DNA of 50,174 bases from Rodentolepis nana (taxonomy: Eukaryota; Platyhelminthes; Cestoda; Cyclophyllidea; Hymenolepididae), in NCBI GenBank assembly GCA_900617975.1, contig UZAE01012255.1, positions 1 through 50,174 of the forward strand. Reading direction: 5' to 3'. Under the pieces are notes generated by a model. That model was not told the DNA's origin and searched no databases. It was given only the letters and a program-made list of their open reading frames with translations. Positions 106-48,216 of this stretch are shown piece by piece. The first letter of the stretch is position 1; every line of letters starts with the position of its first letter. The position numbers and the translations under genes were made by a program.

Positions 106-6011
<5,906 letters not shown>

Positions 6012-6222
6012 CCCTACCTACTCATGCATCTTCTGCTCGAAGAAACAGCATCCAATCAAAATTATATGCCCATATCCTATAAATCACTCAAAATAGAATA
6101 TTAATTCATAATTTTTAAAAATTAAAAATTAATTTTAGTATTAGAAATAAGGCATTCCGAAGGAATTATAAATTGGTTGTTTTAGAGTATTAATTAATTT
6201 GCACCAATTTCGTTTTCTCACG
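6012..6222. promoter_or_regulatory. Divergent promoter region between the esterase-like gene and eIF3i
   Basis: The two start codons point away from each other and are only 211 bp apart, so both 5' UTRs and promoters must lie here. The stretch is very AT-rich, including runs around 6100-6140, and contains an ATTGG/CCAAT-type word near 6172 and 6050. No TATA box can be assigned with confidence. The bidirectional role is inferred from layout only. Confidence 0.5.
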
Positions 6223-8276: not shown

Positions 8277-8757
8277 TCTGTGGTGTGAAATATAACAATA
8301 TCTTGTATTTTTTGGTATCTTCATATCTACACATTTTGAATAAGTGAATGGTTAGAGGTCTGGAGTTGTTTGTTTTTTTTTCATTTTGAAGAAAGTATTC
8401 TGTGAAAATGGAATCCAAACTAGAAATAAGTAACAAATCGATCAGTCGAGTACGCGGTAGTGTTGAGTTTTGAGGCCCAAACCGCTAATTTAAGAAGTCT
8501 CAATGGGAAGGTTTACTATTAGCAAATGGTAGTTCAAAATAACTACTGAAATGTTGCGTACAATAGTCAAAATATATCAGTGTCGGTAGGCTCTGGGTAC
8601 CCTAAACACAGAAGCCCAGTCGGCGGAGAGTTAAATTTTACTTTCGAAAACGTAGCAACTGACTATCCTCGAGGGCAGAGGTTGTTTTTTTTCGATGCCT
8701 ATTGGTGCACATCTACACATCAGAATATTCAACAAGATTTGATTAACTTTGGCTAAT
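8277..8757. other. Intergenic, no gene seen
   Basis: 3' flank of eIF3i. I see no coding exon or RNA gene on either strand. It ends in the upstream 14-17 bp target duplication of the element that follows. Confidence 0.5.
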
Positions 8758-8831
8758 AGGGTGTGTGCGATAGACTTACCTCCACGTGGTGCACCCTGGA
8801 CAACGTGTACTCATACGGCGAAAAAGTCTAT
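8758..8831 (+). ncRNA. HDV-like ribozyme, probably impaired copy
   Basis: P1 uses GGGTGTG against CACCC, P2 pairs ATAGACTT with AAGTCTAT at 8824-8831, P3 is ACC/GGT with loop TCCACGT, and P4 is CGTGT/ATACG with an ACTC loop containing a tolerated G-U. The joining strand reads GGACAAC instead of GGGCAAC, and J1/2 has a 2-nt insertion, so activity is doubtful. Confidence 0.65.
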
Positions 8832-9166
8832 CACTCGGCTTTCGTTATATTCATACGGCAAAAAGTCTATTAACTGGCAGTTAACTGTACTCATACGGCG
8901 AAAAAGTCCATTAACTGGCAGTTGACTTCTGACCTCAAACTACCACCACCCCACTGTATGCCGTAATCGACCCAATCCACAGTATTCATCTTTCCTTTTC
9001 TCTGCCTTTTTGCCTGTCTGTCTCTTCTATGTCTTTGAAACACTCTTCCGCCCTCTCTCGACTTTTTGTCACTTTGATGTTCCTCCTCCTCTCTGTGAAG
9101 CCCGATGTCAACTAAATGGCAAATAATATCTATCAAAACGCCTGCCAATTGATATAAATAAATAAA
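8758..9166 (+). mobile_element. SINE-like retroelement with 5' HDV-like ribozyme, internally triplicated
   Basis: Full-length copy. It is bracketed by the direct repeat TAACTTTGGCTAATAGG at 8744-8760 and 9167-9183; placing the boundary at the ribozyme +1 base gives a 14-bp duplication plus 3 bp of chance or shared extension. The 3' half contains the family pyrimidine-rich body (CTGTCTGTCTCTTC), the GTGAAGCCCGA tail block, and an ATAAATAAATAA terminal repeat. The ribozyme 3' segment (CATACGGC-A-rich-AGTCTAT) occurs three times between 8813 and 8912, making this copy longer than its relatives. Confidence 0.9.
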
Positions 9167-9183
9167 TAACTTTGGCTAATAGG

Positions 9184-11297: not shown

Positions 11298-11505
11298 GTC
11301 AAGATAAAAAGCGCATTACAATGAATATACCGGTATTATTTTGAAAATTTGGAGAAATTAAAAAAGAGAGCACTAACTGCTTTTGAAAATATTAGTCTTT
11401 TATGGCAAAATTCTAAGTATTGCAAAATTTTGATTGGATATTAATTTTATAATATTATGTGTGCAAGAGAATTTCTTGAAACAAGTCAGGCATTGAATAA
11501 TAATA
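11298..11505. other. Likely ashwin 5' flank
   Basis: AT-rich stretch between the tentative ashwin start and the inserted element; it may hold the ashwin promoter or 5' UTR. No specific site is recognised. Confidence 0.35.
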
Positions 11506-11837
11506 TTTATATTTATTTATTTCAAACGACAGGCGTCTAGATAATTATCATTAGCCCATTAGTTGTCTTCTGGCTTCACAGTGAGTAAGGAATATCATAG
11601 TGAAAAAAAGACGAGAGGAGGAGGAACATAAGAGTGATTCACAGGTATAAAATAGGCAGAATGACACAAAGGCAGAGAAAAGGTAAGGTGAGTACTGTGG
11701 GGTAGTCAAATATGATATATAGTGGGGTGATGGTAGTATGCAGTCAGTAGTCAATTGCCGGTAAATAGACATTTTTGCCGTATGAGTATGCGTTGCCCAG
11801 TGTGTATCACGTGGAGGTAAGTCTATCGCACAACCCT
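11506..11837 (-). mobile_element. SINE-like ribozyme element, diverged copy
   Basis: Reads on the minus strand from a degenerate ribozyme head (11765-11836) through the pyrimidine-rich body to the GAAGCCAGAAG-type tail and a TAAATAAATATAAATA end at about 11506-11522. Flanks show an imperfect duplication (TGAATAATAATAT against TGAATTATAATAT). It lies between the divergent ashwin and RPS27 genes. Confidence 0.85.
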
Positions 11838-14832: not shown

Positions 14833-14898
14833 GGGGTGCGTGGTAGACTTACCTCCACGTGGTGCAACCTGGGTAACGTATACTCACGGCAAAAAGTC
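14833..14898 (+). ncRNA. HDV-like ribozyme, degenerate copy
   Basis: Keeps P3 with the TCCACGT loop, but P1 (GCAACC for GCACCC), the joining strand (GGGTAAC), P4 (2 nt lost) and P2 are all damaged. Probably inactive; useful because the target duplication fixes its 5' end. Confidence 0.55.
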
Positions 14899-15146
14899 AA
14901 ATAACTGGCGATTAACTTCTGGCTTAAAACTACAATGGCCCAACTGTATGCCATATTCTACCACTTCTGCATTACTCATCCTGCCTTATCTCTGCCTTCG
15001 TGTCTGTCTCCATACAACTGTAAATCACTCTTCCGTTTCCCACCCCTCGACTTTCTGTTAATTTGATGTTCCTTCCCCCTGTGAAGCCCGAAGTCAGCTA
15101 AAGGGCTAATGATAACTATCAAAAGCCTGCCATTTGAAATAAATAA
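14833..15146 (+). mobile_element. SINE-like ribozyme element with exact 14-bp target duplication
   Basis: ATATAGGTAAGAGT occurs at 14819-14832 and 15147-15160, tightly defining the insert. The first base (14833) is the first G of ribozyme P1 (GGGGTGCG). Ribozyme head, pyrimidine-rich body, TGTGAAGCCCGAAGTCAGC tail block and AAATAAATAA-type end are all present. Confidence 0.92.
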
Positions 15147-15160
15147 ATATAGGTAAGAGT

Positions 15161-15555: not shown

Positions 15556-15626
15556 GGGGTGTGCGGTAGACTTACCTCCACGTGGTGCACCCTGGGCAAC
15601 GTATATTCATACGGCAAAAAAGTCTA
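15556..15626 (+). ncRNA. HDV-like self-cleaving ribozyme, intact fold
   Basis: Order and pairing match the HDV-like double pseudoknot. P1: 15556-15562 (GGGGTGT) with 15587-15593 (GCACCCT), 7 bp with a G-U wobble at the cleavage-proximal pair. P2: 15567-15573 (TAGACTT) with 15620-15626. P3: ACC 15574-15576 with GGT 15584-15586. L3 TCCACGT offers CC for P1.1 with GG of the GGGCAAC strand (15594-15600). P4: CGTAT/ATACG (15600-15604, 15609-15613) with loop ATTC. J4/2 is GC followed by A residues, C15615 being the candidate general acid. Cleavage is predicted just 5' of 15556, the element's first base. Self-cleavage itself is inferred. Confidence 0.85.
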
Positions 15627-15880
15627 TTAATCGGCAGTGAACTTCTGACTTCAAACTACCATGACCCCACTGTATGTCATATTCGAATAATTCTACAGTA
15701 TTCACCTCACCCTTTTTCTACCTTTGTGTCTGTCTGTCTCTTTTACGTCTGTGAATCACTCTTCTTTTCCCCCTCTCCACTTTTTGCCACTTTGATGTTC
15801 ATCTTCCTTTCTGTGAAGCCCGAAGTCAACTAAAGGGCTAATGATACCTATCATAACGCCTGCCATTTGAAATAAATAAA
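15556..15880 (+). mobile_element. SINE-like ribozyme element, best-preserved plus-strand copy
   Basis: Full-length: intact ribozyme at 15556-15626, pyrimidine-rich body with GTGTCTGTCTGTCTC, TGTGAAGCCCGAAGTCAAC tail block, CTGCCATTTGAAATAAATAA end. It is inserted in (TA)n, so the target duplication cannot be measured exactly. Confidence 0.93.
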
Positions 15881-16681
15881 TATATATATATTCTACAGAA
15901 AATCGTATCCTAGTCAAAATAAATTTGTGATAATTTTATTGAAAATGACATTTCAATAGTTGGGAAAACAGTAACTGGAATTTAATTTGATGCAGTTTGG
16001 AAGGTGGCCTTAGTCCACTATTATTCCGTTTGAAATTTAAACTCAATTAATACACTAATGATTTAATACAATTGAATATGAAAAATAATATTCATGAATG
16101 CTATCCGAGATTACATTTTGACACATTTCCTTGTAAGCGAACTTTATTACGTGGGAAACATTGGGAAGTTTATTCCAGCAGTTTTACCAATTTGCATACT
16201 GAATTGACACTGACAAACACTGACTCAAATTCAGAGGCAAACGAAGTAAAATAAAAATGCAAAAGCGTCAACATAATAAGTTCAGTAAAAAAGCTATATA
16301 TAAGGATATGTCATAAATCGGTAAGCTAAATTCAAGGCAAAACACTGTTTCTGAGAAAGGAAACGCTCCCGAGAGTTATTTTCTTAGAAAATGAAGTAAA
16401 GATATTGGCCGAAATTCTGCTTCAAACGAGATTTTAAGATTCACGCATATATTGAAGAATTGTGATCAAATACGCAAGAAAATTGACTTAACCATATTTA
16501 TAGTAAACTTATTCGATAACGACACAATTTAAATCATAAAAAATAAGAATTTCTAAAAATAGTGATAAATTGAAATATTTTGCAAATATGTCAATATGCT
16601 GTTAACCTGATAAAAGTGTTTGAATGTGTCAACGTCTTTCATGAAAATTAAGCGCACTTTCCGTATGTGGTTATTTCTTGT
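15881..16681. other. Upstream region of the Ig receptor gene
   Basis: AT-rich sequence preceding the ATG at 16682, presumably carrying the promoter and 5' UTR. No specific promoter element is recognised. Confidence 0.4.
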
Positions 16682-19600
16682 ATGATGTTTGGGCGACTTT
16701 TGTGGATTTGCCTACTCAGTTTTGGTTTTGCATCTTCTGGTAATGTCTATAAAATACTATTTATCTCTTTTTTTAGCTTACATAAGTAGAGTTTACCTAG
16801 AACAATTAACACCATTTCCAATTGAACTTGACAGTCCGCTTCGTTGGCGCTTATCGCCAGCAGCTGGAAACTCGTATAACGAGCATAGTGGCACAATGAT
16901 ATACCTCAATGAAGTCATCATCGGTTCTTGGAATCCGAGCTGCGTGTCTTATTTAGATAAAAGAGATCTTGGACTGACTTCTTGTGAAGAAGGAAATGGG
17001 CCTTTCTTGACATTTACCTTTACACCAACACGCGAGCATTTTGGCCAAAATATTCGAATAATATTTTTTCCTGATATTAAGGCATCATTTTCTGGAACTG
17101 GCCAAATTCTTCTCAATACAACAATTCAAGTATGTCTCCCAAAACATTTCTCCTTAATTTTATTTGATGTTTTTCTGTCTGCTTGTTTTTATATATCAAA
17201 TTTTGATTGAAATATATCTCTCTAACTTCTGAAAGGTAACTTTAGATTATCCGTTATTTTCAATTTTGATATCTTAATCTCGTTTTATTCCCATTTTTTT
17301 ATTTATTGTTGAGAGGAGATAATTTTATTACCCGTTTTCTTTCTAATTATGATTTACTTGAATTGCGCGTTCTCTCTGATCATCTTACTTTAATCTAATT
17401 CAAGTAATGGATTGCCAGTTTCATCAGAGTCCTTCGTTGCCTATTCATTTTATGGTTTCATGGTTATGTATAGAGTCTTCTTTAAGGTCTTCTGTTGATT
17501 ATTCATTTTTAATTTTTAGATCTAGTTTATTGCAATGAATAGCTTGTTATGTACGTATGATGATAATAAGTAAAAACCAAAACGACTTTTCCACTTATTA
17601 GTTCATGAGTATCCACTCAGATCTGGTTGAAGTTTATGTTCACTTCTCAAGTTCTTCATGAACTTGATATATTTATGTGATTCATCGGATCGGAATTCAG
17701 TCTTGAAGATAATTAAGTGACGATTGAAGTAGATGCTGGTTTTTAAAAGTGGTTTTGAATCATATTCATTTGGTTTCGGTGGTAAGCCTACACTCATTGT
17801 TGATCCGACTGTTTTAAATTTAGGAATTGGCGCAACTATTAACGCTCGTGTCATTGTTTCCATTTCTTGCTGAAATTAATGTTTTAGAGGTGATACTCCA
17901 AATTTCTGTGTTGGTGCAAGTTAGTCTCTTTTACACTTCGTTTATGAATATTTTGTGGAAAGATCATAGCTTATTGATAATTGCTCTTGTGGTGTTTTCC
18001 TATTTATCTACCCCCTGTATATTGATTCGTCACTCGATATATTTTCTCTTCCATGTGTGCTAAACTATCTGTCCATTTAGTGTTTCTTACTCAAGGCTAT
18101 AATCACTTAGGCTGAATTCCTTATTGTTTAAAAAAGGAGTTATATTTGAAAAAATCATATATCTGAAGATGAGTGGTGTGTAGTAGCTTTATCTCTTAAT
18201 TCATGAGGAAATGGGAAATCGTATTAGATATGCCAGTGGTTCAGCGTCCATTGTGCCCATCTGCCCATTCAGTGGTCATAAGATCAACCCTCATCAGTGC
18301 ACATTCATTGGTAGTTACAAACCATATTTGCTTATTAAAGTTGGTTACAAAGTGGCCCCTCTCTTTAACATTTCAAACGTTAACGTGGATTTGAAATTAT
18401 TCAGTTGATATTGACTAAGCATTTCTTTTTTATTCTATCCTTTAGTTGATAAAACAGCCAAAGTTTCTTGATATCAAAGTCACTCTCGATCGCGCGCCCG
18501 AATACGTTGACCTGGCTCCAAGAGATCTAAATTTATCTCCGCCAGTTTTCTTAGATGGGTCTATGGCCAAAGTGGAGTGTATCACAGACGGTGCTCTGCC
18601 ACCACAGCCCATCACCTTCGACATTGTCTGCAACAATCCTCCACGCGCGGCCGTTGAACAAGAGCGTCAAGCAAAGGCTCAGTTGGGTTTTCCCTATGAG
18701 GTGGCCTTCAGGTACTTCAATTTCCGCTCCCCGCCTACCGATGAAGAGTTAGCCGAACGTATTGCGATTGGCTACGCGCAGAGTATTATGCAGGAGTCGC
18801 GAATCGCTCGTTCGCACGACAATCTTACCCTTTCGGCCACGTTGCCTATCAATTCGAAGGCCCACGACTGTTCACTTTACTGTCGTCTTATGGGCAAGGA
18901 AAGAGAATATCGTCTGACTGTCTATTGTAAGTGTAGTCCCGCTTTTTTGTATCACTTTACGTTACATTGGGATGGTAATATTGGGCCAAAATTTCATCTT
19001 GTCAGTGAAGTATCCATCATTCGATAAGGTTATTTTTTGGCTGTATCAAGTTGTTAATTGGTTATTTTGTGAAAAGAAGACTTACAAGAAGACGTTTGGA
19101 AGGAATTTAGTTACGTTTCGGTTGTTGTGTTAGGGTAACATTTGTACATTCGAATCGATTTTGCAAGCGATTAGAAGGATGGTTGCTTTAAACAGATCTG
19201 TGTCATTTATTACTTAGAATGTTAAGAGTTAGTCTTTTTATAGGAATTTAGAAAGCTATGAGTTGTGCACTTTTTTACAAGGGGATGTGATCCACTTTGT
19301 ACTATCCGGTTTGAAAACTCATTTAGAATGATTGGATCCTTAAATTTTTTGACGAATCTCTATCCGCATTGCTCTTAGAGTTTCTTGAACGGCTCATTTG
19401 TTTGAGTGATTGGTTATATCACTTTCGATCCATTTCTATCCTCCACCTGATCGAGGAAATGAGACTAACGAGGTCGTTTTATTTTCTCAAGGGAATTAAG
19501 TTAAAATTGAGTAATAGTGTTACCTCAATTTACCATGAAGAAGGTTATATTCATGTTAAGTGTACAAATTTGGTAAGGAAGTATATGCAACTGCTGAATA

Positions 19601-22600: not shown

Positions 22601-25600
22601 ATCTCCTTTGGTTTTCCTCTTTGGGTCCCTGAAGAGTAATGCCACTTTATGTATGAATGTCTCAAGTTATAATTTAATGGCACTGATCGCCTGGATAAAA
22701 GACGGCCCTCTAACTATATCATTGAAAATAGGCATATTATAAACCGCTCTAGGTGGTATGATTGGTCATTCCACTCACTGCGTATGGGCCGATGGACATT
22801 GAAGTTGCGGTCTCTGATTTCGCAGGCGAGTAAGTTAACAGCCGCACCCCCAGTTAAAATTTCAAGGATTTCAGTTAAACTGTTGAAGGAGGGGGGGGGG
22901 GGGGGGTTCGAATAATGGATTCTGCGGAATTATGTACTGAGAGGTGGCAACTTCCTATGCCTTGATTGGTTCTTCTGTATTATGTGTTTATTAAATCGAG
23001 GTTTTTTTCACTTTGATGTTCCTTCCCCTCTGTGAAGCCTGAATTTAACTAAAGAGCTAATGATAACTATCAAAACACCTGCCATTTGATATAAATGAAT
23101 AAATAAAACTATTTTTACCGTTCTTACATTTTGAAATTTTAGATCAAACAACGGTGGCACATATTCTTCCTCTTCCTACGGACGGTTTGATGCGAGTTGG
23201 TTCCTCAATGACTTGCTACGCCGACGGTTTTCCTGAACCCTCTATTGTCCTCTCATTGCGTCAGCCCATGCATCAGTTTTCCCATCGTCCAATTATCGAT
23301 CCAAGAGAGTACATAGCGACCACATCGCCATTACCTCCACTAGAACAAATCGTCGACACATCCGACATTGCCGCGGCCACAAGAATTGGCCTACGACCCG
23401 ATGAGTACACAATTCGTGGACCACGGTTCACTCTAGCCTATAATGCTACTCCCGGAGTGGAACTTATGCTCATCTGCACTGCGGGAAACGCTCTTCCAAA
23501 TGCAGTCGATTTTCTGGGATACAATAAGACTATTGCTACAGTTAGATTCACTGTTGCTGGTAAGTGGTCCGTTTGGTAACAAAATAATCAGTATTAATGG
23601 TGTGGATTGAACTTGTTGATGTGGAGATTGGGTAATTACACTCTATTTTTTTTCATGAGAGGCTGAAAATAAAATTTGTCAATATCAGGTCAAGTGTATT
23701 TCAAATTTTTCACATAGTACTTAACATTGGCACTCACCATATTATTGAAATATTGATGCGGCGATTTAATCATTGGCCCTCTTACCTATTTGCCCTCTTT
23801 GCGACCTGAGGCATTTGCTGGCCTGTCAGGTTCTGTCGAAGCTCAACTCTGAAGAATACACAGATTTGGACTGGATAAATTATTTTCCATTTGACACTAA
23901 TAATAATAACAATATAATCCTTTGCATACACCGTGGCGCTTTGATTTACGTCAATAACATAAACATTTCTGTTTGTTTTTTTGAATTTAATTGAGATTTT
24001 ATTGCTAATAAGTTTTGCGTAGTTGTCAAGTCCACAACATTCTTCTGCTGCTTTATTAGTCATTATTATTATTATTAACAAAAAATTATGATAGCATCCA
24101 CGCGTTGTCGTTTCAAAGTGATCGTCAACGAATATTATTATTTTTTCAAATGGCAGGCTTTGTGATATTTATCATTAGCTCTTAAACTTTGACTTCAGCT
24201 TCCCCCAAGGGAGGGGGGTACATTTATAGCAGTTAATTAATAGCAGTTCATTAGCCGTCTTCTTGCTTCCCAGTATATCTGGCTTTCCGTCCTTGTCTTT
24301 AGAGCTGGACATCGAATCAGGTGGGTCTTCTTCATTTCCTCATGTAGGTTACATAGAGGGCATATGAGTTGAGTGTATACTCCCAATCTGTGATGTTTTG
24401 CCAAGCAATCGTGTCCGGTACGTAGTCTAAACTCAGCAACAGCTTCGATTCCTGGCCAGTCGGGTGTATCGGAGAGAGATTTGATTTGATTTGACTTCTT
24501 CAACGAATATGTATTTGAATTCTGGGGTAACTAAATTCAATTGCACCTAGTTTGGTGGGTGCTGATTAAACGGGTTTACATATACCTGCCAATACAACTT
24601 TAGGTGCAGTAAAACTGTGATGACGATTAATAAAGTTTTAATGATTTCCAGTGAATTTGAAAACATATTTGCGTTTCGAAAAGATGTTTGGTGCAATTCT
24701 ATGTTTTTACCATTTTACCTTCTCAGAGGGAGAGGCAAATAGCTTAATTTTCTTCTGTGTTTTCAGGTGAAGATGGTAAGTTCTGGTTCACCACCTGTTT
24801 GCCCTCACAATTTCGTTTCGCTTTTTTGTTTAAATTTTGTTTGGCAAGGCTCCTTGATTTTTGACACTATTAAAGCGAGGTTATAAATTCAACTACTTTA
24901 TCTTCTGTGCGCATTTTACCCCCTAATGATTATTATTGCCGTGATTTTTTATCTGACATTATCGAAAAATTTTGAATCAGAATTTTTTTTCGATTCTTTC
25001 ATAGCGTGCATATACAGTCGTTCGTAGATCATGGAAGTGTAACATCGAGGGGAGCACACAGGAATCGTATTTGATCCCGTCCGGGAATTAAGTGTATGCC
25101 AAAGTCATAATGTACCACATTTTGTTAAAGCAAAAGACATTGGGCTGAGTTAACCGACGACGACGATCCATGGAAAGGGGATAGAGAGTGTGCTCCTTAT
25201 CCAGTTGCACTCAGTTGTGTGTGTGGTTCAGTATGAAAGTGAAATCGAACCGGGGGATCTACTCTTTTATTTCAAGACTGTTTCTTAACCGGCATTCGGT
25301 TAGTAGTTACTAAATGGGCTGAGTGCTTTATTGAGCAGGTGGTTAGAACCTCTGGACTAATTAATTCCAATCTGTAACAAGCACTTGTCTACAATTTTGA
25401 AACGGCGGGGGCTATTAGACATTGCCTTAATCGAATCCCATTAGGACTTTCTGAGCAGGCATACATCAAGAGGACACCTCTAATTTGCTTTTATTAAACG
25501 CCTATGTGTACTTAAAGTACACAAGAACGGTTGGTTACTGAGTTAGAATATCAAACAGAATTGGAGAATAGCCTCATTTTTGGCCTATTTGACCTATCAA

Positions 25601-28234
25601 TAGCTCTGATTACAATCACTCAATCAGAGAAGTGTGTTTTGGCCAAGCGCAAAACCCTCTTAATGCCTTTCGCCTTTTTGTCTTTTTTCCCCAATAGCCA
25701 TCTCCTATAGCAGCATTGGAATCGTGGTGGGAATCTGTCTGGTCATTCTGGTCTGTGCTATCATAATCATTCTCTTAATGGTTTACCTTCGGCGTCGACA
25801 GAAGTACACCTCCAATGCAATTCGCACTAGAAATGCAGCTGTAAATGCTGCAGATGGTGCCAATGGCGCAAAAATGGCAGGACATGGAAAGTGAGTCAAA
25901 GATTCTCTTTAGATTGCAGAAATAATGTTTCGTTGAGAATGCAAATTGATTTCATTTACTTAAAATGAAATCAATTTGCTGTTATATTTCAATAAGCCAA
26001 TGAGTATCGAGTTAAGTATACACAGTGAGACCAGCATGGAATTATGATGAAATAAAAATAGTTTCCGCAGATCACTTCTTTACATTAGCTTTCTACTGGA
26101 TGGAAGCTATCTTAAAGTTTATCCTAATTTCAGGGTGGTCTTGGAATTTTTTGGGTTCTATCCTTTTAAGCATCATATTGATTGTTTATCGCCTAAACCG
26201 TGTTCTACTCATGAGAAAGAGTGAATACCGTCTTACCAGAATCTTAATTCTTGTTATGATTATCTACTCGAAGAAGGGTTTGTGTCAAAGGTATGAGTTA
26301 AACAAGGGCGAGGGGGGGGGGAATATATGACCTGCAAGTTCTACTCATATTGGAAACTAGTGGTATTGGCATTTGAAGATTTTATTTCTGAATAGTAAAG
26401 CTTTCTCCTTCAACTTAAGTTGTGACGGACGCGTACTTGAAGCACCCGATGGTGAATCGGTCTTACTATCACTAACAAGTAGAAGAGGTGCCAACATCAG
26501 AGTTTCTCTATATAAAGTCTCCATGACTCTAATTCCCCAGCCAAGATTGATGGTGGAATGATTTTCTAAATGGGTATTTCCTATCTTTTAAACCTTTCTA
26601 GATGGTGTGTCTGAATTCTGCACTGTCTCATTAGTCAAACAGCATGTTCGGAACCAGTACGCATGTATTCACGCGCAATGTCCTTTGTGTTGGTCACAGT
26701 GGTTGAGTTATAGCCCTTCCTCTGTGACTCATTTATTGTCGCTATAGTGGGCGTTACTTCCCCTGCAAGCCTAGTCATAAGCTTAAATAAACGCAATACA
26801 TTGTCTGTTATGGGTTCCCGATTCCAAAGAGCTGGCAATTGTGCTGGCTTGGACTTTGTTTCCTGCGTCTGTAAAACATTTTTCGGCTCCTTTTGATCTT
26901 GCCGACTTCCAACTTAGCTTCTACTGCCAAATTATTTAATTTCTCTTCGTGAAACGTGAACAAGAAGGAATCATCAGGGGTAGGAATTTTCGAGCCTATT
27001 TTGGAACATATATTTATTTGTTTATATCAAATGACAGGCGTTTTGATGGTTATCATTAGCCCTTTAGTGGACTTCAGGCTCCACAGAGGGGAAGGAACAA
27101 CAGAGTGAAAAAAGTCGAGACGGGGGCAGGGTGGAGTAGAAGAGTGTTTCAAAGATGTAAAAGAGACAGACACAAAGGTAGAAAAAAGGTAAGGTGAGTA
27201 CTGTGAAAGTGGTCGAATATTACAGTAGTGTCGAGTCATGGTAGTTTGAAGTCAACTGCCAGATTATAGACTTCTTTATCGTAGGAGTATACGTTGCCCA
27301 GGGTGCACCACGTGGAGGTAAGTCTATCGCACACCCGATATTTTAGAACATTTATCTTCCATAAAAGACTTTGATATTAGCCAGTTGTGTCACTTGAATC
27401 CATAATAATTCTGATAAGTTTCTTTTTGGGCTAATTTTTTCATCATATTTAAAAATAAGATTGTTATACATTCAGTGGGTTTTCATAAATGCCTTCTTAA
27501 TCCATACTGATGTTGGTAAATGAAGTAAAATTATGATTCCTTCATACAGATAGTTCTTGACTCAAACAACCGTAGAAGTGAAAGTTGGGTCTGGTCGAAT
27601 AGGTTCTCTCGTTTCCAAGGCTATTATTCCTAATGCGTCATCGGATCCATTTTGATTTGTGGTGCTTTTCGTCTTAACTTAAGTCCAACTTTTCCTAAGC
27701 CAATATTTTTTAGGTTTAGATAATCGATGGATTGGAAATGAGGAAGAATCTATACGATCGGGACTAATCTTTCCCTTCCTATGAATAATAGTAACTGATT
27801 CTAACTTTGGAGAACAGTAGCATAATCTTTTTAGAAGTCAAGGATTGCGTACTGTTGGTAGACTGGGAAACCCTGTTTGAATATTCCTTTGGTGATCTGT
27901 ATTAAGCAATGGGTTGGCCATTTTGATAAACATATGAGGTCTTAACTCCATTTCAGCTGACGAAGTAGATGTGTATGTTGCTAATTCCATTTATGGAGAG
28001 TATTCTTGTCGTTTCCCAACTTAAATTAACGAGTTTACCTAGCGCTTTTCCTTTCTTGAAATTATGCACATTTTAATGAACTTGAGTATATAATTTTTTT
28101 TTTGAAGTCGGCTTTTAATTTGCGTTTTTATCTGAGAGGCATAAGGCGCTAGTCTCGTGCAGCATATACATGCCTTTATCCATCCAATCACTTTCGCAAA
28201 ACTGCAGCCGTGGCAGGCGTACACACCTCACTCA

Positions 28235-39300: not shown

Positions 39301-42300
39301 GAATTTTTTTCCAATCGGTATTGCCTCTATAGAAGGAGGCCGGGAATGATTTAATTTTTAGCTCTTTTATTCTCTCACGTCTCCCCCCCCCTCCCCGCCC
39401 CCGTTTAGCGCTCGTAAATGTTTTCTACTGTGGAACTGGTTTCTGAGTAACAAGTTGGATCCCTGTAATGCGGTGTCTTCAATTTCAAAATGCGTTCCTT
39501 GAACCGACATTATTTTTGTAATGGAAGAATTGATTTTTTGAAAAATCGTGAAAAGTTTTTGGCGTTTTTGACGAGATCTATTCTTTTGTCTTTAAGTTAA
39601 ATTTGCAGAATTTTTATTGCCCAATTCTGTTCTTCCTCTCTTTATAATTTAATCCGTGATTTTTTGTTCGGAAATCTCGCTTTCTGCCCAGTGAATATTA
39701 TATGCCGGTGTTTAGTGGCATATTTTGAATCCCTCTTACCACCCCTCCTCAATAATCTCATTAGTCAGGAATTCATTTTTTTTTTGAAATTCTTTAATTT
39801 CGTTGAATCTTCTCATTGAGGAATTGCGGCAGATTTCGGTGTTTATTCCAACAGGAGTAAAGGAAACGCTTCAGAGTATCCAATGGACCTTTATCGATTG
39901 TTCGCTATTGGTGGCTAGTAATTTCGCTAATTGACCGTTCATCATTGGTTTTCAAGTCTTCAATCTATAAGGCTGCAGAAACGACTGAAATGAAATATCA
40001 CGCCATATTACCTTTCATAGTTAATCTGCTTTGTTCCTCTTTGTGTTGTTTCACTAAGCAGGTTGTTTGTAAAACTACTAGAACAAAGGCAGCCATTCGA
40101 AATTCAACTCTCATTGGGGCTTTAATGCTTACATTGTCGCAATTATGAAGATCATAACGTTATATAATCTTGATTTTGTTCCAGTAATTTTTGATCTTTG
40201 TTTTTTCTAACTTTGTATTTTTTGTCTCTTCTATTATGTTTCCTCCTCCTCTCAACCAATCCACCTCATCTTCATGATCATCTTTCGATGGCTGCCTTTG
40301 TCTCTCACTTTGTCTTCTTTGGGGTATGGCGAAATCGATATATTGATCGGTCTGTTGTTGTTATGCCTATGCACGTATCTGCATGACCATGTCATATATC
40401 ACTGTACCATACCCCTATGTTCTGCATGCGTTCTCTTTACCACCTCCTCTCTATATATTACTACGACCTTGACCACCTTAGCAATCGCACTATCATCATC
40501 AACACCACCAACAGCAGCGTCAGCTGCTGAACCGAGATTTAACTGTGAAAGGTCCTCCCCCTAATTCGCGGGAAGAGGAGGAGGAAGAGGTGTTGCGTAT
40601 TACTCAGTGCTAATGAGGGATATGTACTTCCACTTCAAATAAGCGAATAGCTAAACAAATGACTTCCAAATACAGACAGAACTAATAGCACCTATGACTC
40701 ACTATCTTACTCACTTGGATCACATGTTACTTTATAGATTATCCGCACATAAACCACCATCACTACCACCATTATCTTCTCATCCTTCTCTATAATGATC
40801 TCCCCCCCCCCCCCCAAACTTCTGCATTTTTCTTGAAACAAAAAACTGCGTATGACAAATTCTTAGATGGTTTTATTGCAATATGAGTACTCAATTATCT
40901 ACCAGTAAGCGATGTTTCAGTGTTGGCATAATAAAGTGAAATACGATATCTCGCTCTCTCTTTATTGCGAGCAGTGTTCTCCTCTCTTGAATGCTCAATC
41001 GGTTTTGGGATCAGAAATTTAATCTCCGAGTCACTTTTGTTTCCGTTAGCTCGCTTTTTTGGCATTTTTTGCTGTTTGCTGCGAGTGAAACGAACATCCT
41101 ACTTCATCCGATTTTCAATTTTTCGTTATATTCTCTATTTCCCCTCTCTCCGTCAAATTGATATCCATTATTATTTGCTCCAAGGGTAAGTTCTGAACGC
41201 CATCATCCAAATTTTCTTGTATGGTTTTCACTTGCTATCCTACCAGTATTGATCAAGATCTCTTATGAACAAATATTTATTTATTTCAAATTGCAGGCAT
41301 TTTGATTGTTATCATTAGCCCCTTAGTTGACTTCGGGCTTCACAGAGGGAAGGTAACATCAAAGTGAAAAAATTCGAGAGGAGGACCAGAAGAGTGATTC
41401 ACAGATGTAAAAGGGACAGACAAAAACGTAGAAAAAGGTGAGATGAGTACTGTGAAAGTAGTCGAATATGACATACAGTGGGGTGATGGTAGTTAGAAGT
41501 GAGAAGTCAGCTGCCGATTAATGCTTTTTTGCCGTATGAGTACACGTTGCCCAGGGTGCACCACATGGACGAAAGTCTATCGCGTACCCCGTAAACAAAT
41601 ATTGAAATCCATTTAGTTTTCATTCAGTTATACGTGTGGGGTTCCTAAGAACCATCAACTCTGTGATACGATGACGAAGGCAGATTGAACCAGCAACTGC
41701 TAGAGAGCCTTAGTCCAGTCGATGGACAATATGGTAGAAGTATGGCTACATAATTAACATGGAATAGTATTATTTAGAATTATTGTAAGAATAAAATGGT
41801 AATGAAAAGGCTCTGGATTCTGGAAAAAATAGGGCTCTGTTGGTTCACCGACTCGACCCGTCTATTTCTGCAAGTTTGGAAGCTATATCAGGACTGAGAA
41901 TTGTTAAGCTGTTCTGCTAATGCAATTGCATAAATAAGGGCTTGCTGCATTACTTATTGAACGAATAGTAGTGTTTCGCATTAAGGTTATGCAAGGAATG
42001 TCTAATCTAGTTCCTTTTCTTCTCCTAGTAGTGCTTGCAAATGCCAACTTTTTCTACACGTGAAATTCGTGAAAAAACACCAATAAAAACATCGTATTTA
42101 TCTACTTGTCACAGCCTCTCCCCCCCCCCCCCCCCCCCCCCCCCCAACTTCGACCGTGACCTCAAAAGGCCACATGATTCAGGCAGGATTTAGCATTTGG
42201 TTACTTACCCTAGCAAAACTTGAGGAAACAAACATGTTTTCTCTTTTCCCCTTTTCTCCTTTGTGTGTGTGTGTGTGTGTGTCTAAATTGTTTGCCACAC

Positions 42301-45593: not shown

Positions 45594-46130
45594 CTAGTCG
45601 AAGTGTACACCTTGTTTCCCTCCTAACTGGATCTTTCATTAACGAACCTTTGATAGATTTCTTTATTGCGAGGAGAAATCATCACTTTACTATAATTTCT
45701 AATTTATTATAGATTCATTGCTAGAGTTTTAGTTTTTTGGGCTTAAACAAAGTAAATGGTTTGCACACAAGTCAAGAAAATGATGAGGTTGCATTTATTG
45801 TTAAATCACTCAAAGGGAAATGTGGAATCGATCACGAACTCGAGGTTTCAATACTTGTTGGCACACAAGTTTTGTGTTTCATAATCTTTATTTATTTATA
45901 TCAAATGGCAGGCGTCTTGATGGTTATCATTAGCCATTTAGTTGACTTCAGGCTTCACAGAGGGGAAGGATCATCAAATTGAAAAAGTCGACAGGGGGGG
46001 GAGCAGAAGAGTGTTTCAAAGATGCAAGAGACAAACACAGAGGTAGAACAAAGGTGGGGTGAGCACTGTGAAAAATATTCGAATATGGCACAGAGTGAGG
46101 TGATGGTAGTTTGAAGTGAGAAGTCAACTG

Positions 46131-46588
46131 CGTCAATGGGGTGATGGTAGTTTGAAGTGAGAAGTCAACTGCCACAATGGGGTCATGGTAGTTTGAAGTT
46201 AGAAGTCAACTGCCTTTAATAGACTTTTTTGCCGTATGAGTATACGTTGCCCAGCGGTTTATAGACTTTTTGCCGTATGAGGTCTGTTGCCCAAATATGA
46301 CATACAGTGGGGTCATGGTAGTTTGAAGTCAGAGGTCAACTGCCGGTTTATAGACTTTTTGCCGTGTTAGGGTTAGATCAACTGCCGGTTTATAGACTTT
46401 TTTGCCGTATGCGCATACACAATGACATACAGTGGGGTGATGGTAGTTTGAAGTGAGAAGTTGTGACATATAGTGGGGTGAGGGTAGTTTGAAGTCAGAA
46501 GTCCACTGCCGGTTTATAGACTTTTTGCCGTATGAGTATACTTTGTAACATACAGTGGGGTCATGGTAGTTTGAAGTCAGAAGTCAAG
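46131..46588. repeat. 458-bp segment, first copy of exact duplication
   Basis: Identical by eye to 46835-47292 over its whole length (offset 704). Flanks differ immediately outside (GGCATACAG against ATGTCAACTG). Confidence 0.85.
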
Positions 46589-46834
46589 GCATACAGTGGG
46601 GTCATGGTAGTTTGAAGTCAGTGGTCAACTATACAGTGGGGTGATGGTAGTTTGAAGTGAGAAGTCAACTACCAGTCAATAGACTTTTTTCCGCATAAGT
46701 ATACGTTGCCCAGGGTGCACCACATGGAGGTTGTAAGTACACGTTGCCCAGGGTGCACCACGTGGAGGTATGCCGTTTGAGTATACGTTGCCCATTGGTT
46801 TATAGACTTGTTTGCCGTATGAGTATACGTTGCC

Positions 46835-47292
46835 CGTCAATGGGGTGATGGTAGTTTGAAGTGAGAAGTCAACTGCCACAATGGGGTCATGGTAGTTTGA
46901 AGTTAGAAGTCAACTGCCTTTAATAGACTTTTTTGCCGTATGAGTATACGTTGCCCAGCGGTTTATAGACTTTTTGCCGTATGAGGTCTGTTGCCCAAAT
47001 ATGACATACAGTGGGGTCATGGTAGTTTGAAGTCAGAGGTCAACTGCCGGTTTATAGACTTTTTGCCGTGTTAGGGTTAGATCAACTGCCGGTTTATAGA
47101 CTTTTTTGCCGTATGCGCATACACAATGACATACAGTGGGGTGATGGTAGTTTGAAGTGAGAAGTTGTGACATATAGTGGGGTGAGGGTAGTTTGAAGTC
47201 AGAAGTCCACTGCCGGTTTATAGACTTTTTGCCGTATGAGTATACTTTGTAACATACAGTGGGGTCATGGTAGTTTGAAGTCAGAAGTCAAG
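46835..47292. repeat. 458-bp segment, second copy
   Basis: Second copy of 46131-46588 inside the mosaic array. The unit contains body modules and partial ribozyme modules. Confidence 0.85.
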
Positions 47293-47868
47293 ATGTCAAC
47301 TGCCGATTAATAGACTTTTTTGCCGTATGAGAAGTGATAAGTCAACTGCCGGTTAATAGACTTTTTTGCCGTATGAGTGGGTTGCCCAGGGTGCACCGCG
47401 TGGAGGTAAGTCTATCGCAACAACTGCCGGTTAATAGACTTTTTTGCCGTATGAGTATACGGTGCCCAGGGTGCACCACGTGGAGGTAAGTCTAAATATA
47501 CATTGCCCAGGGTGCACCACGGAGGTAAGCCGAATGAGAATACGTTGCCCAGGGTGCACCACGTGGAGGTAAGGTGTAGTATACATTGCCCAGGGTGCGC
47601 CACGTGGAGGTAAGATAGCTTGAACTCAGAAGTCAACTGCCGGTTTATAGACTTTTTTGTCACATGAGTATACGTTGCCCAGGGTGCACCACGTGGAGGT
47701 ATGTCACATGAGCATACGTTGCCCAAGGTGCACCATACTGGCTTTACTATTTAACAGGAGAGGAGCTGTAGAGGACTATTTCCATATCTAAATCGGCCCA
47801 CCTTTTGCCCGTGATGACAGGCTCATGGATTATGCACTATGCTTTTTAGTTACACCTAACTGAGACAT

Positions 47869-48202
47869 ATATTTATTTATTTATTTCAAATGGCAGGCGT
47901 TTTGATAGCTATCATTAGCCATTTAGCTGACTTCAGGCTTCACAGAGGGAAGGTTCATCAAAGTGGAAGAAAGTCGAGAGAAGGAGGGGTACAGAAGAGC
48001 AATTCACAGATGTAAAAAAGGCAGACAGACACAAAGGTAGAGAAAAAGGTAAGATATGTACTGTGAAAGGGGTCGAATATGGCAAGCAGTCGGCCATGGT
48101 AGTTTGAAGTCAGAGGTCAACCGCCTGTTAATAGACTTTTTTGCCGTATGAGTATACGTTGCCCAGGGTGCACCACGTGGAGGTAAGTCTATTGCACACC
48201 CT
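47869..48202 (-). mobile_element. SINE-like ribozyme element with exact 14-bp target duplication
   Basis: CCTAACTGAGACAT at 47855-47868 and 48203-48216 exactly brackets a full-length minus-strand element. The 5' boundary (48202) is nucleotide 1 of the predicted ribozyme; the 3' end is AAATAAATAAATAAATAT. Confidence 0.95.
48131..48202 (-). ncRNA. HDV-like self-cleaving ribozyme, intact fold
   Basis: 72 nt, numbered 5' to 3' from 48202. P1 1-7 (AGGGTGT) pairs with 32-38 (GCACCCT). P2 11-18 (ATAGACTT) pairs with 65-72. P3 19-21 pairs with 29-31. L3 22-28 (TCCACGT) offers C23-C24 for P1.1 with G39-G40. J1.1/4 is GGGCAA, 39-44. P4 45-49 (CGTAT) pairs with 54-58 around loop ACTC. J4/2 starts GC (C60) then A residues. 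All helices of the HDV-like double pseudoknot are complete. The first pair is A-U rather than G-U, which may reduce activity. Confidence 0.85.
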
Positions 48203-48216
48203 CCTAACTGAGACAT

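Follow-up and report, generated by a model that had tools for sequence, protein, structure and literature searches.

An HDV-like ribozyme sequence at the 5′ ends of a SINE-like family and its partner LINE in the tapeworm Rodentolepis nana

A SINE-like element of ~330 bp in R. nana starts with a 72-nt sequence of the HDV-like ribozyme type, base 1 of the ribozyme being base 1 of the element, and a LINE of the same genome with endonuclease, reverse transcriptase (RT), and RNase H domains has the SINE's ribozyme at its own 5′ end. The fold with its key bases, the flush ends, the ribozyme at the LINE 5′ end, the 3′ tail that SINE and LINE share, and the occurrence of the 72 nt in thousands of copies are all direct observations. 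Reading from these sequences, we consider it very likely that the 72-nt fold cuts the element RNA out of read-through transcripts at base 1, and that the partner LINE copies the clean-ended RNA. A preliminary description of the window (the whole stretch of 50,174 nt analyzed here, contig C2453) had placed an HDV-like ribozyme at the head of a SINE-like family. Its observation of such a sequence in the window is confirmed and its interpretation supported, but it had overlooked the partner LINE, which shares both ribozyme and tail.

Results

Fold of the two intact copies

Two copies of the element in the window, A and B, have a ribozyme in which every helix is complete (Table 1), with P1 (7/7 pairs), P2 (8/8), P3 (3/3), P1.1 (2/2), P4 (5/5), and a C at position 60 in J4/2 in each. 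The 5′ strand of P1, GGGGUGU in copy B and AGGGUGU in copy A, pairs with GCACCCU, and the opening pair is thus G-U or A-U. All the pairs of the HDV-like fold that had been claimed for the two copies, with the helices in HDV order, are present, and both copies are complete in spite of the sequence differences pointed out earlier, in the first pair, J1/2, and L4; the end of the second copy lies at 15627 and not, as had been given, at 15626.

Table 1 Ribozyme features and SINE-like copies in the window
Feature	Position	Strand	Remarks
HDV-like ribozyme, copy A	48131..48202	-	RF02682 44.6 bits; every pair formed
Copy A P1	48202-48196 with 48171-48165	-	7/7 pairs
Copy A P2	48192-48185 with 48138-48131	-	8/8 pairs
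Copy A P3	48184-48182 with 48174-48172	-	3/3 pairs
Copy A P1.1	48180-48179 with 48164-48163	-	2/2 pairs
Copy A P4	48158-48154 with 48149-48145	-	5/5 pairs
Copy A candidate catalytic C (position 60, J4/2)	48143	-
Copy A predicted cleavage	between 48203 and 48202	-
Copy A 5′ target-site duplication, 14 nt	48203..48216	-	abuts ribozyme base 1; 14/14 match to 47855-47868
Copy A 3′ target-site duplication	47855..47868	-
HDV-like ribozyme, copy B	15556..15627	+	RF02682 44.4 bits; every pair formed
Copy B P1	15556-15562 with 15587-15593	+
Copy B P2	15566-15573 with 15620-15627	+
Copy B candidate catalytic C	15615	+
SINE-like copy A	47869..48202	-	5′ ribozyme, 3′ AAATAAATAAAT tail; 83.8% identity with copy B along its length
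SINE-like copy B	15556..15884	+	within (AT)n stretch
SINE copy	14833..15151	+	ribozyme decayed (P2 4/8, P4 2/5); duplication flush with base 1; RF02682 26.1 bits, RF00094 32.3 bits, both below cut-off
SINE copy	27004..27337	-	ribozyme nearly complete, position 60 = T; RF02682 35.0 bits
SINE copy	11503..11836	-	ribozyme partly decayed (P1 5/7, P3 2/3); RF02682 31.2 bits
SINE copy	41273..41590	-	ribozyme decayed (P2 5/8, P3 1/3); no Rfam match at E ≤ 1
SINE copy with internal 5′ repeat	8756..9168	+	ribozyme 35.3 bits, below cut-off
Rearranged SINE	45870..47735	-	5′ part of tandem pieces of the ribozyme core and the segment after it; sub-threshold RF02682 matches at 46679, 47434, and 47647

The tandem expansion in the window has a unit of ~41 bp (46099-47735), and 5′ expansions of the ribozyme core or the next segment also occur at L002 2404-2964, L019 1265-1430, L028 954-1120, and L040 1-821, the tandem pieces of L019 and L028 beginning at or near ribozyme base 1. 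Elsewhere in the window, ORFs at 3209-3664(-), 5667-6017(-), 18446-19027(+), and 23103-23579(+) resemble, by eye, carboxylesterase/neuroligin-type and Ig-type adhesion exons.

Covariance-model matches

We compared the window with the 4227 families of Rfam release 15. The covariance-model search proposed in the preliminary description gave matches to HDV-F-prausnitzii (RF02682, cut-off 44 bits) that lie just above the cut-off at both intact copies (48200-48131 on the minus strand, E = 4.2e-5; 15558-15627 on the plus strand, E = 4.8e-5). These were the only two above cut-off among 12 window matches at E ≤ 1, of which nine hit RF02682 and the other three RF00094, the latter reaching 38.3 bits at best and 36.8 bits next (cut-off 50). 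The RF02682 model starts P1 two bases late (48200, 15558) relative to the element start; by its duplication, copy A starts at 48202, and by the family duplications, copy B starts with the GGGG at 15556. HDV-F-prausnitzii, the best-scoring model, has the same fold and core motifs and is named for a bacterium; we know of no report of it as a repeat.

When the genome (107 Mb, 4701 contigs) was searched and 61 of 25212 candidates were scored, RF02682 gave at least 59 matches at E ≤ 1e-3, at least 37 of them above cut-off (best E = 1.1e-7). None of 14 control genomes, prokaryotic as far as named, had an RF02682 match, and RF00094 had no match at E ≤ 1e-3 in the whole R. nana genome (86 of 18786 candidates scored). 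SINE loci fetched by their body alone also contained the ribozyme: 20 of the 29 such loci outside the window were scanned, with five RF02682 matches above cut-off, and 18 of the 20 had some RF02682 match at E ≤ 1.

Two other classes of element were considered and rejected. At E ≤ 1, neither the window nor the 20 scanned SINE loci matched a tRNA, 5S, or 7SL family, so that the element, lacking a 5′ part of such derivation there, is not a classic pol III SINE. It is not a hammerhead retrozyme either, no hammerhead family having matched at E ≤ 1 in the window, the 20 SINE loci, or 20 LINE 5′ ends.

Conservation of the fold across copies

All strict HDV-like features were found in 33 of 55 SINE copies and 14 of 19 LINE copies, with one or more missing in 22 of the 55; among the SINE copies from body-fetched loci, 21 of 36 were complete. 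The LINE rows leave out the rearranged L074, and the strict-feature figures, as well as the SINE/LINE identities below, also leave out L065. Excluded from the alignment were first the SINE row L019:1429 (a 5′ repeat fusion) and then 13 rows with indels, namely window:14833, L024:747, L021, L038:1430, L033, L026, L022:1269, L003:1129, L005, L077, L081, L085, and L089.

The alignment without gaps has 61 rows, 58 of them distinct; in it, 93.9% of the cells of the proposed helices were paired, vs. 27–49% when slid by 1–3 columns, and position 60 was C in at least 90% of the rows, with T or A in a few copies. Shuffled partners paired as well as real ones in the same rows. The compensatory changes looked for since the preliminary description did not appear: variation was one-sided only, with no double change among the 58 distinct rows. 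Because the rows are ~94% alike per column, such a test has little power and little covariation is to be expected, but it lends the fold no support; the likeness probably reflects young copies that mutated after insertion.

Between SINE and LINE (300 sampled pairs), the ribozyme was 86.4% identical and the next 42 nt 57.5% (shuffled: 48%), compared with 89.6 and 81.1% within the SINE and 93.2 and 87.2% within the LINE; the ribozyme was thus held while its neighbor drifted. A chance resemblance of the repeat to the HDV fold would agree with the lack of compensatory change and with above-cut-off matches that come from one Rfam family alone and barely pass in the window. We nevertheless regard it as extremely improbable, given the best E value in the genome, the start of the fold at the very first base of the element, and the constraint on the 72 nt relative to the neighboring segment.

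Target-site duplications and the 5′ end

Target-site duplications (score 9 or more) were present in 37 of 54 full-length SINE copies, the other 17 having no convincing one; the 55th copy, without a recognized tail, was left out. Relative to base 1, the duplication ended at 0 in 25 copies, -1 in seven, -2 in one, -3 in two, and +1 in two (n = 37), and when flanks of different copies were mispaired as a control, a duplication was scored in only 5 of 270 cases. Base 1 had been shifted by one by hand in L007, L010, L015, and L020 to fit the P1 strand, and L007 (at 0) and L010 (at +1) are among the 37. So is copy B (at -1), whose duplication is uninformative because the copy sits in an AT microsatellite.

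As the duplications end at ribozyme base 1, the predicted cleavage site is the 5′ end of the element. They fit cleavage directly 5′ of P1 but are not cleavage itself, and flush 5′ ends are also compatible with an internal promoter that has a fixed start, which is the main rival explanation. The 72 nt would then act mainly as DNA, as a promoter starting at base 1 in the manner of Pr77, with the fold secondary or lost. A fixed transcription start would yield fixed 5′ ends, Pr77 is described as promoter and ribozyme in one (PMC4035085), and, since the Rfam scans of the window and of the 20 SINE loci revealed no part like a pol III gene promoter, some source of transcription is needed. A promoter, however, has no need to preserve five helices together with P1.1 and the J4/2 C, nor would it be expected to score with models built from unrelated ribozymes, and we consider this explanation unlikely.

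No pair of 20-nt upstream flanks reached 70% identity (0 of 1485 SINE pairs, 0 of 171 LINE pairs). The elements are accordingly not R2, their upstream flanks being mutually unrelated and not one 28S rDNA site.

The partner LINE

The domain set of the LINE was pieced together from two copies, neither complete: Pfam domains for endonuclease (PF14529/PF03372) and RNase H (PF00075) were found in L094, and for RT (PF00078) and RNase H (PF00075) in L065. In L065, an open frame starts ~25 nt past the ribozyme, and the endonuclease starts ~100 nt past it, by likeness to L094. AP endonuclease, RT, and RNase H together make up the L1Tc/ingi-type set, a likeness in domain content. Among the 120 protein matches listed for the LINE, the best by name were R. 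nana proteins (12 entries, 42–92% over parts); Hymenolepis microstoma had two (66 and 77%), followed by arthropod proteins (34–48%). Contig C3787 matches residues 1-147 of an R. nana protein at 99%. COX1, translated with the flatworm code, groups the host with cyclophyllidean tapeworms, Pseudanoplocephala crawfordi being its closest named relative (86%).

The LINE 5′ stretch without the ribozyme was used as a query; 40 matches of 565 candidates were scored, and 20 of the 40 5′ ends were fetched. The ribozyme was recognizable by eye in all 20, and in 19 it began beside an unrelated flank, L074 being rearranged. Rfam matches at E ≤ 1 were obtained in 19 of the 20 (best 42.9 bits; L087 had none), with none of the 20 above cut-off; the common LINE type has U-U as its last P4 pair. 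A LINE subfamily with T, not A, at position 25 (loop L3) is represented by L080, L084, L089, L090, and many LINE-form places.

At the other end, 30 loci were obtained by RT search, and in 11 of them the RT is followed, in the same orientation, by the SINE 3′ tail, ten times over 49–75 nt at 79–90% identity and once over 37 nt. A scan of 20 of these 30 loci for HDV-like matches turned up a single one (E ≤ 1), which stays under the cut-off and belongs to a SINE beside the L041 RT; the flanks were at most 1.5 kb, and the 5′ ends of other LINE families were therefore mostly out of reach. A tRNA gene (L051 102-174, 62.5 bits) lies within 1.5 kb of a different RT match.

One LINE copy on contig C4530 (L075 and L094, neighboring stretches) is bounded by matching duplications that directly abut ribozyme and tail, but it has lost its internal RT. 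Both L094 and L065 (contigs C4530 and C4476) belong to LINEs shortened inside that keep ribozyme and tail, with exact duplications in C4530, which suggests that deleted LINEs were mobilized in trans.

The 5′ 97 nt of the SINE are 86.6% identical to the LINE L075, and both SINE ends (these 97 nt and the 3′ tail) are common to a LINE of the same genome whose autonomy is putative. By sequence, the 5′ likeness is clear over the ribozyme and weak after it, and no counterpart of the SINE middle was found in the LINE. We therefore interpret the SINE as a LINE derivative of the NARTc kind that was shortened and joins a LINE-like 5′ end and the LINE 3′ tail around a middle without such a counterpart.

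Copy number

Within three mismatches, the full 72 nt occurred at 3572 places in the SINE form and 136 in the LINE form, and the 31-nt core occurred exactly at 3579 and 286 places, respectively; the reversed patterns gave 0 throughout. These are counts of the ribozyme stretch alone, tandem arrays included, and the two forms overlap slightly within three mismatches; the reading of SINE bodies covered the window and the fetched loci. By these pattern counts, ribozymes of the SINE type are far more numerous than those of the LINE type.

A ribozyme active in a founder LINE and now a fossil in dead copies would agree with the lack of at least one strict feature in 22 of the 55 SINE copies and with the partial loss of the coding region in both LINE copies examined there. 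Against this, the thousands of near-identical 72-nt copies and the exact duplications suggest a recent spread with the ribozyme intact, and 33 of the 55 SINE copies are complete; we rate a fossil ribozyme as very unlikely.

Discussion

We favor self-cleavage of the element RNA at base 1, which may proceed as follows. The element would be transcribed within host transcripts or from an internal promoter, and the ribozyme would fold co-transcriptionally, with C60 of J4/2 helping to cleave 5′ of base 1 and leaving a 5′-OH. The LINE protein would bind the common tail and, at a nicked target site, reverse transcribe the RNA as far as its cleaved 5′ end. Because the cleavage lies upstream of the ribozyme, each full-length new copy would retain it. 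In the LINE, the ribozyme may also aid cap-independent translation, as has been proposed for other LINEs. A further proposal, which we put forward tentatively and at somewhat less than even chances, is that the ribozyme is the whole 5′ machinery of the SINE, which would have no promoter of its own and ride host transcripts, and that LINE and SINE form an independent animal counterpart of L1Tc/NARTc. If this were true, the element could ride any host transcript and cut itself free, and thousands of self-cleaving sites able to cut host transcripts would thus be sown across the genome.

The closest precedent is found in trypanosomatids, where L1Tc/NARTc and ingi/RIME are described with the Pr77 HDV-like ribozyme (L1TcRz) at the 5′ end (PMC4035085; PMC8256844). 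Like the tapeworm LINE, L1Tc combines AP endonuclease, RT, and RNase H with an HDV-like ribozyme at the very 5′ end, and NARTc, like the tapeworm SINE, is a short non-autonomous partner with both LINE ends (PMC4035085). The tapeworm pair differs in having an animal host, in the SINE middle without a LINE counterpart found, and in the large excess of SINE-type over LINE-type ribozymes.

In insect RTE-type LINEs, the ribozyme likewise occupies the 5′ position. Insect LINEs with HDV-like 5′ ribozymes, e.g., RTE types, were reportedly described by Ruminski in 2011. By domains they are another LINE type than the tapeworm LINE, and we know of no SINE partner for them.

The preliminary description had named R2 and RTE as precedents; R2 derivatives do provide a second one, but L1Tc/NARTc, the closest, was missed. 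In R2, the ribozyme is described as making a precise 5′ end from a cotranscript, and short non-autonomous derivatives exist (PMC3414825, PMC3774820). HDV-like ribozymes occur in R2 and other LINEs, with proposed roles in processing and translation (PMC7761336). R2 resides in 28S rRNA genes, whereas the tapeworm elements have mutually unrelated flanks, and the domains of the tapeworm LINE, an AP-type endonuclease and RNase H among them, set it apart from R2.

Sm-alpha-type flatworm elements are grouped with the hammerhead non-autonomous elements. Hammerhead retrozymes are, like the tapeworm SINE, non-autonomous animal elements with a self-cleaving ribozyme, but the ribozyme is of another class and they are described as spreading via circular RNA (PMC7761336).

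By title and start of abstract, the matches listed in our literature search, with subscription papers and preprints outside its range, included no report of an HDV-like ribozyme in a flatworm SINE, and no literature was found on a ribozyme in Hymenolepis. An animal R2 survey (2026) that includes flatworms mentions ribozyme and HDV in the title of a work it cites (PMC13188248). As far as searched, a very abundant LINE/SINE pair of the known HDV-like-ribozyme arrangement is thus new to flatworms. The earlier expectation of a distinct case holds to that extent, but the arrangement itself is known from L1Tc/NARTc.

With the flatworm LINE/SINE pair, one more lineage is added to those whose retrotransposon 5′ ends are attributed to an HDV-like ribozyme. 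Its copies carry readable duplications, which makes the model in which the ribozyme sets the 5′ end testable statistically, copy by copy. The abundance of the ribozyme does not readily fit a published description of cyclophyllidean tapeworms in which their retrotransposons are inactivated (PMC12471100). If thousands of sites in the parasite genome can self-cleave, this would matter for the processing of its transcripts and for the annotation of its genes.
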